This document shows, in pieces, positions 7,752 to 29,022 of a stretch of 64,000 bases of DNA. Below the pieces are notes generated by a model. The model saw only the letters and a program-made list of their open reading frames with translations, made no database searches and was not told the origin of the DNA. Origin of the DNA: Acidihalobacter ferrooxydans (GTDB lineage Bacteria > Pseudomonadota > Gammaproteobacteria > DSM-5130 > Acidihalobacteraceae); contig NZ_CP019434.1 in assembly GCF_001975725.1 (NCBI RefSeq), forward strand, positions 248,001 through 312,000, read 5' to 3'. Within the stretch, counting starts at the first letter, position 1. Each line of letters begins with the position of its first letter. Position numbers and translations under genes: made by a program.

Positions 7752-7843
7752 GGGGTTGGGTTTTGCAATCCTGCACGATTCTTAGTGGTCTGGCCCTTTC
7801 GTGGCGCTAAGAATCCACCTGCTTGATTGCAAGACTCAGCCCC
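7752..7843 (+). repeat. palindromic repeat E2, two nested stems
   Basis: This is the best-preserved copy. The outer arms 7752-7770 (GGGGTTGGGTTTTGCAATC) and 7825-7843 (GATTGCAAGACTCAGCCCC) pair along their whole length if G-U pairs are allowed. An inner stem pairs GATTCTTAG (7777-7785) with CTAAGAATC (7807-7815). It sits between the divergent phoX and small-membrane-protein genes. The wobble-compatible changes hint at selection on RNA, but this is not proof. Confidence 0.75.
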
Positions 7844-8033
7844 TTTGTACCTTGGCAAGGGCTTCAGGCGTATTTTCTCAAGGTTCGATAAACTCGACTT
7901 TGGTTTTCACCCTTTTCATCCATTTCGCACTCATCGTCGATACACTGATTAACTATGAACAGGCTCATGTTTGAAGGGTTCTTCCTGGGGGCGCTCCGAT
8001 TGGCAGTGGTCGTTCCATCATTGAGACAAGGCT

Positions 8034-10340: not shown

Positions 10341-10406
10341 GGGGGTTTTGCAATCCCGATGTCGTGGCGCGAACAGCCAACTTGCTTGATTGCAAGACCA
10401 GACCCC
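10341..10406 (+). repeat. palindromic repeat E3
   Basis: The left arm GGGGGTTTTGCAATC (10341-10355) pairs with the right arm GATTGCAAGACCAGACCCC (10388-10406). It shares the CTTGCTT spacer and right arm with E1, E2 and E4 but lacks the inner stem of E2. It lies between telA and the 3' end of the EamA gene. Confidence 0.7.
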
Positions 10407-10457
10407 GTTTGTTTGCTTTGCATAAAAGCACGAATGCCCATGGAAATGTTACTTGCG

Positions 10458-11580: not shown

Positions 11581-11661
11581 GCCCAACGCCAGCCGTAACC
11601 GGCGCATTTGTAGTGAGCGCAGCGAACGAAAAATGCGTCCGCGTTTACGGCCTTGTTAGCT
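11581..11661 (-). repeat. attC (59-base-element-like) recombination site
   Basis: Reading the minus strand, the site begins AGCTAAC, overlapping the TAA stop of the OLD-type gene, and ends GTTGGGC, a perfect GTTRRRY core. In between are imperfect inverted arms (GGCCGTAAACGCGGACGCATTT against AAATGCGCCGGTTACGGC, written here in two parts) around a central loop. The length of 81 bp, the stop-codon overlap and the orientation fit integron attC sites. The GTTAGCT at the opposite end of the cassette is the exact complement of AGCTAAC, as expected after circular-cassette integration. Confidence 0.72.
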
Positions 11662-13366
11662 GCGAACCATCTTTTCGAGGGCGACGATAAGTGCATCGAT
11701 GGAATTTCGCTTATATTGGTTAAGACATTCATGTGGTTTTTTCGCCACTTCCTCAGCTAAAACGGCTTTTACTCTACGCAGAATTCCCTCATTCCAAGGC
11801 TTTCCTTGATCCATAAATGTTGATTTCAATCGTTCTGACCATTTTTTGTTGCTCTTGAATGCCGCCGAATCTAGGTTCACACCAAACGCGTTGAGTACTG
11901 CGTCTTTATAGCAGGAGACCGAAATACAGTCCTCGAACTCCGAATCGGTCATTCCTTTGCAGGTAACCATCGTGCAGTTTGATACATCAATGAGTACATC
12001 ATCAGAAGCTTTTTGAAAGGCCTTCCGACCGGCATCATCATTATCGAGCAAGGTATGAGTAAGGCAGAGAGAATTTTTGAGAAGCGAGAGCTTATAGGAC
12101 AAATTTCCGGCTCCGCCTATCGGTTCGATAACAACCATGTTGGTTTTTAGTGCCTTAGCTAGCTTTTCACTCATGACAGGGATTAGTGCCCTCAATGACT
12201 TAACATCTTCCTCACCTTCCACAACCAATGCGTAATTTGCATTAGTTAAATTGTCTGATGCTTTGATGCCGAGTATTTCGCGGATGGTTGCGACATTTTT
12301 TGCCGGAGTAGCCTTGCCAGAATTAACAATAATATTCGTCCGAATATTAGATCTATCGACGAAAAGCGGATTGTGAGTGGTTAGAATTACTTGGTTGGAT
12401 TCTGCCAGAGACTTTATGATCTCGTTTAGTTGGTGGATAGCACCCGGGTGCAAGTGCGACTCTGGTTCTTCGATGGCAATTATTGATGCTCCAGGATGCC
12501 TTAATTTGTTCTTCAACAATCCTAGTGCGGCAAGGCTTTTTACACCATCACCTTTGTATTCAATACTTGTCGGAGTTCCATCGTCAATAATTACATTGAA
12601 TTCTCGCCTCACGCCGTAGCGCCGACTAATTTCTGGTATTTCTATTTGAACGTTCTTAATGGTTGGCAAGAATTCCATTAAAGGCTCTTGTATTCGATGC
12701 GCCAAATCTTCCAATATTGGCAGCTGTAAGTCTTGAATGACCGCTAAAGCATTTTGATATTCCTCATCCCTCTCAAGAACTCGAAGTTCTTGCGATAGCA
12801 TGCGACTTACAACCTCAATCGCCTCTCTGTCAGTTCGTACCGCCGGGATGTAATTAAAGTAAATGCGACTTGCAACAAACTCCGATATTTTCCCGGACTT
12901 TGATGAGAGTGATTTTGTGTTTTTTCCTGGTTTTCTTAAATTTATCTGAGCTTCGTTTTCTTTTCCGATTTTGATCTCTAGCGGCAGTGTCCCATTCAAG
13001 CTAGACCCTATCTCTTTCTTAAACTCTTCAATCTCAGGTTGATCCAGCATAAATTCCATTTTGAAAACGGTCTGAGTTGATGAGCGCCTGTTTTGAAACT
13101 GAATTGGAAAATCTCGACTCCAGAAATAGGTTTCTTGAGAGCTTCGATACGGTCTACGTACAACCGAGCGTTCGTCACGGGCGTGCATTTGCAGCAGATC
13201 CATCGCAACTTGGAGTGCCTTCAGTAGATTGGATTTTCCTTCGTTATTTTTTCCTATCAACACAGTAATGTCGGACACCACAACCTTATGGGCAGATGTG
13301 ATACTCCTGAAGTTGGTGACTGAAAAATTTGTCAATCTCACGCTCTAAGACCTTTTTTGCAGCTAA
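11587..13366 (-). mobile_element. integron-type gene cassette carrying an OLD-family nuclease gene
   Basis: The cassette is bounded on the minus strand by G/TTAGCT at its 5' end (13367/13366) and by G/TTGGGC at its 3' end (11587/11586). It holds one gene read in cassette orientation, starting 20-odd bases after the 5' core and stopping inside the attC. This is standard cassette anatomy. No integrase gene or attI was found in the window, so the cassette is an orphan, either from a lost integron or inserted at a secondary site. Its base composition is clearly AT-richer than flanking core genes. Confidence 0.65.
11656..13341 (-). CDS. OLD-family ATP-dependent endonuclease (AAA ATPase + TOPRIM)
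   Basis: A 561-residue protein with an SMC/RecF-like ATPase: Walker A GKNNEGKS at 30-37, Walker B region IIAIEEPESHLHPGA at about 287-301, H-loop TTHNPLF at 321-327. A TOPRIM nuclease follows, with VVEGEEDV (373-380) and LLDNDDAG (431-438). This is the layout of phage P2 OLD and of Gabija GajA. No UvrD-like GajB is adjacent, so it is a class 1 (stand-alone) OLD protein; anti-phage defence is a family-based inference. The start is GTG at 13341 with AAGG upstream. The gene is AT-rich and sits in an integron-type cassette. Confidence 0.85.
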   Translation of the reverse strand: MRLTNFSVTNFRSITSAHKVVVSDITVLIGKNNEGKSNLLKALQVAMDLLQMHARDERSVVRRPYRSSQETYFWSRDFPIQFQNRRSSTQTVFKMEFMLDQPEIEEFKKEIGSSLNGTLPLEIKIGKENEAQINLRKPGKNTKSLSSKSGKISEFVASRIYFNYIPAVRTDREAIEVVSRMLSQELRVLERDEEYQNALAVIQDLQLPILEDLAHRIQEPLMEFLPTIKNVQIEIPEISRRYGVRREFNVIIDDGTPTSIEYKGDGVKSLAALGLLKNKLRHPGASIIAIEEPESHLHPGAIHQLNEIIKSLAESNQVILTTHNPLFVDRSNIRTNIIVNSGKATPAKNVATIREILGIKASDNLTNANYALVVEGEEDVKSLRALIPVMSEKLAKALKTNMVVIEPIGGAGNLSYKLSLLKNSLCLTHTLLDNDDAGRKAFQKASDDVLIDVSNCTMVTCKGMTDSEFEDCISVSCYKDAVLNAFGVNLDSAAFKSNKKWSERLKSTFMDQGKPWNEGILRRVKAVLAEEVAKKPHECLNQYKRNSIDALIVALEKMVRS

Positions 13367-13391
13367 CCATTTATTATCAGGCTAAAATTCC

Positions 13392-13506
13392 TTGATAAGT
13401 GCATATTCACCGGATTTTCAGGAAAAAATGCCTGGTTTGCCGGTCAATATCAACTTATCAATGCCTCCGAGGCCCTGATAAGCTGATATTGACCGGGTTT
13501 TCGGGC
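13392..13506. repeat. cluster F: three copies of a ~22-bp motif, two direct and one inverted
   Basis: TTGATAAGTGCATATTCACCGG (13392-13413, given here as its consensus region) recurs as TGATAAGCTGATATTGACCGG at 13477-13497, and inverted as CCGGTCAATATCAACTTATC at 13440-13459. The inverted and last copies form a near-perfect 21-bp stem around a GC-rich 16-base loop. All three are followed by a G/C-capped TTTTC-type stretch. The cluster starts about 25 bases upstream of the OLD cassette boundary. It does not occur elsewhere in the window. Confidence 0.65.
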
Positions 13507-13614
13507 ATAAACCCAACCTATTTAGGGGGTTTTCTCCGCCAGAATCGAAAGTATCAGAGCGCGTATGGCGGGTCAAAGGTTGCTCGATGAGGCGCGAGGA
13601 GTCATGCGTCGATT

Positions 13615-13699
13615 GCATTATGCGATCAGTGTACGATTCTGAGTGGTCTAACCCTATCGCGGCACAAACAATCCGTTTGCTTGATTGCAAGATCGCCCC
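13615..13699 (+). repeat. palindromic repeat E4 (degenerate left arm)
   Basis: The core GTACGATTCTGAGTGGTCTAA aligns with the same region of E2, and the right arm GATTGCAAGATCGCCCC (13683-13699) with CTTGATT spacing matches E1-E3. The left arm has decayed. It lies beside the doxX 3' end. Confidence 0.6.
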
Positions 13700-13714
13700 T
13701 TTTTGTTTGCGTGT

Positions 13715-28661: not shown

Positions 28662-28754
28662 CAGCCGGTCAGGCTGTGCGGGGCGCACGTGTGCGTGCAA
28701 CGGCGCCGTTCCCTTTCCCTGTGCTGCTCGTATATAGTGGGCGCTCGATTGCTC

Positions 28755-29022
28755 GGCCGCCCTGGAGAGAGTCCGCACAGTACGGACCGCCGAAGGCGCA
28801 ACCCGCCCGGAAACGCTCAGGCACAAGGGACACGGCGGCCGCAGATCGCGTCGGCACATTGGGCGTGATCGCTATCGGCTCTGGAGAGCGGCTGACGTCT
28901 TGCGTCGGCCCACCGAAGGGGATGGTGCCTGGCAGGACTATCGAAGGGGGCTGCATGAATCGCTCTTTGGTTTTCCGCGCAACAGCGCCTAATCTCTCAG
29001 GTTCGAGGACAGAGGGGCGGTT
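28755..29022 (+). promoter_or_regulatory. tandem glycine riboswitch upstream of gcvT
   Basis: Two aptamers of the glycine riboswitch are recognisable. Aptamer 1 (about 28757-28834) contains GGAGAG, GCCGAAGGCGCAA and CGCTCAGGCACAAGGGAC. Aptamer 2 (about 28878-29020) contains CTGGAGAGCGGC, CACCGAAGGGGATGG and TCTCTCAGGTTCGAGGACAG, with an extended P3. They lie about 95 bases before gcvT in the same direction. Glycine binding normally turns on the cleavage system. The linker between the aptamers is longer than the most compact tandem arrangements. Confidence 0.9.

Follow-up and report, generated by a model that had tools for sequence, protein, structure and literature searches.

Genes for defense have been reported in integron cassettes in 2025 (Darracq 2025; Kieffer 2025; Getz 2025; summarized in the review PMC12409362), and the locus described here likewise packages a single defense-type gene with an attC site. 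It differs from these anti-phage cassettes in its cargo, a predicted OLD nuclease, and in its occurrence in a genome without integrase. The OLD proteins of class 1, such as P2 Old, YbjD of E. coli and the protein of PDB entry 6P74, are encoded by a single gene without GajB or retron partner and combine an ABC ATPase with a TOPRIM domain in about 560 residues. These characteristics recur in the gene studied here, which is, however, borne by an integron cassette and whose product is far in sequence from its PDB match 6P74, a class 1 OLD from Thermus scotoductus (E 1.6e-5). A review of 2023 regarded autonomous defense by class 1 OLDs as an open question, since it had been shown for P2 Old and lambda alone (PMC10568477), and YbjD has been reported since then (PMC13261556).

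Cassettes without their integrase are also described. CALINs, as defined in IntegronFinder (PMC9024848), consist of attC sites and cassettes without intI, which likewise applies here, but the OLD locus has one attC site where the default minimum is two, and its upstream element is common to a larger CALIN at 2217 kb of the same genome. Insertion at attG sites (Loot 2024, as cited in PMC12444791) also places cassettes at scattered chromosomal sites, whereas here two of the four cassette sites have a 175-bp upstream sequence in common. Finally, a chromosomal integron with cassette arrays is present in the sister genus (G002, G004) within the same bacterial family, but there intI lies beside argH together with a different attI, and the argH locus is empty in A. 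ferrooxydans.

The DNA analyzed, in the following called the window, comprises 64,000 nucleotides of Acidihalobacter ferrooxydans (contig NZ_CP019434.1, positions 248,001 to 312,000 of the forward strand). Taken as a whole, we think it likely that it carries a cassette with a stand-alone OLD gene for an autonomous nuclease, which IntI would have inserted at the GTT ending an attI-like element, and that the intI gene has since gone. The features concerned are, in window coordinates:

11587..13366, minus strand: near-certain integron gene cassette of 1780 bp that begins at G^TTAGCT and runs up to the G in the R' box of attC, delimited by the sequence and by the onset of homology to a copy in another genome (L062) at GTTAGCTGC
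13359..13367, minus strand: 5' core site GTTAGCTGC, with the recombination point between G13367 and T13366; exact nine-base complement of R''
11656..13341, minus strand: OLD-family gene of 561 aa, with GTG start and a TAA stop within R''; N-terminal ABC ATPase, C-terminal TOPRIM
11581..11661, minus strand: attC site of 81 bp, with R'' AGCTAAC, stem GGCCGTAA/TTACGGC, extrahelical base and R' GTTGGGC; its bottom strand is the plus strand
13367..13541, minus strand: probable attI-like upstream element of about 175 bp that contains an inverted repeat of 28 bp and has an 89% identical copy elsewhere in the genome

Read on the minus strand from 13367 to 11581, the core GTTAGCTGC is followed by an AAAGG resembling a ribosome site, the GTG, 561 codons, the TAA and the palindrome. 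A preliminary description of this DNA had placed the OLD start about 20 bases after a GTTAGCT core and the stop inside an attC-like palindrome, and both are found: the GTG at 13341 lies 19 bases downstream of the seven-base core, and the TAA at 11658..11656 falls inside the AGCTAAC that opens an 81-bp imperfect palindrome (11661..11581, minus strand) ending in GTTGGGC. The exact complementarity of R'' and core that had been given for seven bases is borne out, but it extends over nine, as the R'' arm GCAGCTAAC pairs with the 5' core at nine of nine bases. GTTAGCT fits the core consensus GTTRRRY except for the C at the third R, and the G^TT recombination points at both ends result in a length of 1780 bp, which matches 11587-13366 exactly. 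The DNA is AT-richer, as had been noted, with a GC content of 0.42-0.45 within the cassette against 0.53-0.67 in the surroundings. Every anatomical part was located where it had been described, the one correction being the strand, as the cassette runs from right to left. We therefore regard 11587-13366 as a complete integron gene cassette, an assignment that is almost certain from the sequence.

Another explanation would be that the gene is an ordinary chromosomal one whose inverted-repeat terminator resembles attC by chance, and the fold of the site taken by itself gives it some room. When the bottom strand of 11581-11661 was folded, as had been suggested, the attC arm did form, but the 81-mer beat shuffled sequences just modestly (z -1.6, with 10 of 200 shuffles equally good). 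As this single-site fold was unimpressive, comparative evidence was sought. When 369 genomes of the class were searched for similarity, the attC core was found to recur in 15 other genomes beside other genes, mostly with 87-97% identity and in one weaker form with 77%, and a further copy of the family lies on a Pseudoalteromonas replicon. In nearly all cases the end of an unrelated gene falls on the site or close to it, the neighboring genes differ, and the outer bases, namely R'' and the last letters of R', vary from site to site. A constant inner arm with cassette-specific ends is, at the level of sequence, the signature of attC. In ten aligned sites, the stem is paired in 95% of the cells, compared to 29-45% in slid controls, and three pairs show a compensated change, so that the family of the window site has both the extrahelical base and a stem (L'/L'') with compensatory change. 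The covariance model R1 scores the window site with 108.8 bits, which is circular because the model contains that very site; the independent support comes from the similarity and the covariation of the other nine. The attC assignment, for which a model scan had been recommended, is borne out by similarity, covariation and the covariance model.

The terminator explanation is further opposed by the pairing of core and R''. When the 428 ORFs with 100 aa or more in about 140 kb of the A. ferrooxydans genome were examined, a match of at least eight bases occurred in two, the OLD gene and one cassette of a second array, and the nine-base match is likewise confined to 2 of the 428, both cassettes. 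Also, the homology to L062 breaks at the core. The chance palindrome is thus ruled out by the comparative data, and we give it next to no probability. The attC family itself, about 75 bp in length (L097-L112), is spread across many genera of the class with one detected copy per genome and varied cargo, which includes a TIR gene (PDC-S66/ThsB-like, L108) and a DUF2971 gene (PDC-S31, L109).

Homologous genes lacking GTT boundaries had been named as an observation that would speak against the cassette, and the result is divided: GTT ends typical of a cassette occur in three homologs (identity 92%, 64% and 61%) but are missing from four others (66%, 60%, 59% and 46%). The closest, in a Mariprofundaceae MAG of another class (L062), is the same gene with 92% DNA identity over 918 bp, and in the alignment its homology with the window starts exactly at GTTAGCTGC. 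Upstream of it stands a different cassette, which encodes a 4-fold beta flower protein (PF21784) and has a core of its own and an attC that is shortened. The L062 copy of the OLD gene breaks off after about 306 codons, where an insertion-sequence-like end truncates it, and the 3' side of the cassette is therefore not preserved. The 64% homolog (L119), in another genome of the class, resides in a canonical array with full attC sites on both sides, and in the 61% homolog (L060) the start is preceded by GTTAGCTC and the stop coincides with GAGCTAAC, the remainder of the attC being weak. Cassette ends are absent from L059, L061, L095 and L040, the last of which, as read from its sequence, apparently adjoins a type I restriction methylase gene, and such a gene is annotated near L095. 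In a small and partly supported tree, cassette and non-cassette copies are intermixed. Judged by these homologs, the OLD cassette has moved across distant hosts. No OLD cassette was found in viral contigs, and phages gave distant partial matches and nothing closer. The site before insertion would be expected to read AAATGG joined to TTGGGCGGCA; no such empty site could be demonstrated from relatives, because the flanks are not conserved in them, and the EamA homologs there have different neighbors.

The protein matches the Pfam profiles AAA_15 (2.5e-27) and AAA_21 and the PADLOC profile Old (8.6e-32), the latter up to residue 464 and thus into the C-terminal domain. Intact motifs comprise Walker A with K36, the H-loop of the ATPase with H323 and, read from the sequence, the TOPRIM residues E375/D379, D433/D435 and D466-x-E468, with the roles of the residues assigned by comparison with PMC7049728. 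The ABC ATPase and the TOPRIM metal-binding residues of a class 1 OLD are hence found by Pfam, PADLOC and sequence motifs, and the gene is the sole sizeable ORF in the cassette. The flanking genes of the locus are EamA and DoxX. No UvrD-like GajB gene, as in Gabija (class 2), lies next to the OLD gene, and neither a reverse transcriptase, as in retrons (class 3), among the scanned neighbors nor an Rfam match nearby was detected; by context, the protein therefore belongs to class 1. The stand-alone OLD gene of the preliminary description thus sits in a real cassette, with its motifs intact and no partner gene. An AlphaFold model based on five sequences was discarded (pLDDT 42), as the alignment was too shallow. 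Elsewhere in the window, at 28752-29022, an ordinary tandem glycine riboswitch (RF00504, two aptamers) was recognized.

Between the window gene and its L062 copy, 49 of 72 differences are at third positions, and a dN of 0.031 compared to a dS of 0.30 (dN/dS about 0.1) indicates purifying selection. That a one-gene cassette has moved between classes and is under such selection argues for a protein that is self-sufficient and useful. An anti-phage function appears likely to us. Instead, the gene could serve DNA repair or maintenance or be a silent passenger. Until 2023, a phage phenotype had been shown for no class 1 OLD but P2 Old (PMC10568477), certain members of the OLD family serve purposes unrelated to defense, among them the archaeal Cran1 (PMC12796447), and no promoter was found for the gene, all of which would be compatible with a role other than defense. 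The low dN/dS between cassette copies from different classes points the other way, as do Old being the best PADLOC match, the position of non-cassette homologs near restriction systems and the phage phenotypes that YbjD, another class 1 OLD, shows upon induction (PMC13261556), and we consider a non-defense role unlikely. As an anti-phage protein, it would act without partners as an ATP-controlled homodimeric TOPRIM enzyme with putative nuclease activity. P2 Old is triggered by loss or inhibition of RecBCD (PMC10568477), and a phage-induced change in host DNA-end processing may similarly be the trigger here, with degradation of DNA or death of the cell as the outcome. The earlier suggestion of an undescribed anti-phage cassette must be narrowed, as defense cassettes are already known (PMC12409362), but none of the papers searched describes an OLD cassette or its sharing by distant bacteria.

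That no integrase is in view, as stated before, holds beyond the window: no match over the cut-off of TIGR02249 was obtained in the window or in the whole genome (one contig, 3.45 Mb). Matches below it all score far below, occur likewise in all 14 control genomes, and two of them look like XerC/XerD by their length. The same model exceeds the cut-off in 36 of 95 relatives, including two of the sister genus with intI beside argH, and the argH locus of A. ferrooxydans shows no integrase, integrase remnant or attI trace. The genome accordingly has no intI over the cut-off that could stand next to an attI in a complete integron. The genome-wide search for intI and other attC sites that had been advised did reveal three further cassette loci:

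(a) 2,217.6-2,219.9 kb: multi-cassette array in which an unknown gene of about 142 aa comes before one for DUF3825, both having an attC, followed by remnants that include a ParDE pair
(b) 2423.4-2424.6 kb (L115 1585-2650): lone cassette for a DUF3644 protein, whose core GTTATGAG is matched by its R'' CTCATAAC
(c) 2775.4-2778.2 kb (L017 9437-12183): SmaI-like restriction gene, fused to a control domain, that lies between two decayed attC sites

The DUF3644 product of locus (b), which lies near a tRNA-like 3' end, matches the PADLOC candidate PDC-S19, and defense-type genes are present in three of the four cassette loci of the genome. A CALIN in the sense of at least two attC sites without integrase is found at 2217 kb, and the OLD locus has a single attC. 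In locus (a), direct repeats of about 42 bp (L064 2122-2183 and 2837-2898) flank the ParDE cassette and a truncated attC, and in locus (c) the restriction gene is next to an IS30-type transposase.

The hairpin-rich element of about 175 bp lies directly upstream of the OLD cassette, and its 89% identical copy heads array (a) (genome 2217444-2217631; L064 444-618). At each locus, the two copies cease to be similar at the junction with the cassette, and both arrays have TTGGGCG after an attC. As the second copy heads a multi-cassette array, the element is, on the basis of these sequences, somewhat more probably than anything else the attI-like site of an integrase-less platform. The preliminary view of an orphan cassette outside an integron is therefore only partly upheld: the genome indeed lacks intI, but the cassette adjoins an element that also heads a second array. 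In the 369 genomes, a 188-bp query of the element gave no accepted match; none was found in plasmids and never one beside intI, and in sequence the element is unlike the sister-genus attI. For these reasons it is termed attI-like, and an off-target insertion into attG is kept as a rival, in which the element would be a repeated intergenic sequence with a good GTT target that was hit twice and never served as a platform. This possible but clearly less probable route would agree with the lack of intI near either copy, with the dissimilarity to the sister-genus attI and with the single cassette at 2423 kb, which lies near the tRNA-like sequence in the absence of the element, and insertion of this kind is documented (Loot 2024, cited in PMC12444791). 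It does not explain as well that the similarity of both copies ends at the cassette junction, as expected of attI, and that one copy heads several ordered cassettes, as platforms do. Two weak matches to the element among the 369 genomes were rejected, both being located inside unrelated genes. A dispersed intergenic repeat of about 60 bp, of which the genome has well over ten copies, is found nearby at 13633-13702, as well as at 7772-7846 and 10382-10416.

Under the attI-like reading, which we prefer, a former or trans-acting IntI would have recombined the folded bottom strand of attC with the GTT at the end of the element; we infer both this insertion route and the attI identity. As the genome has no intI, the OLD cassette should now be fixed. 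Its expression would start outside or within the element, in which no promoter was recognized. The fold of the element as RNA is much stronger than that of shuffled sequences (z -5.7), so that a regulatory role is conceivable and it may have one.

It is also imaginable, although rather doubtful, that the element acts as a portable attI lacking an integrase of its own, which was copied to several chromosomal sites and captures cassettes by means of an integrase supplied in trans; if true, a portable attI would scatter defense cassettes over the genome. Defense cassettes now extend to a genome without integrase, and the natural cassette-borne homologs, namely the window gene and those with 64% and 61% identity, the 92% copy being truncated, make the question of autonomous defense by class 1 OLDs directly testable.
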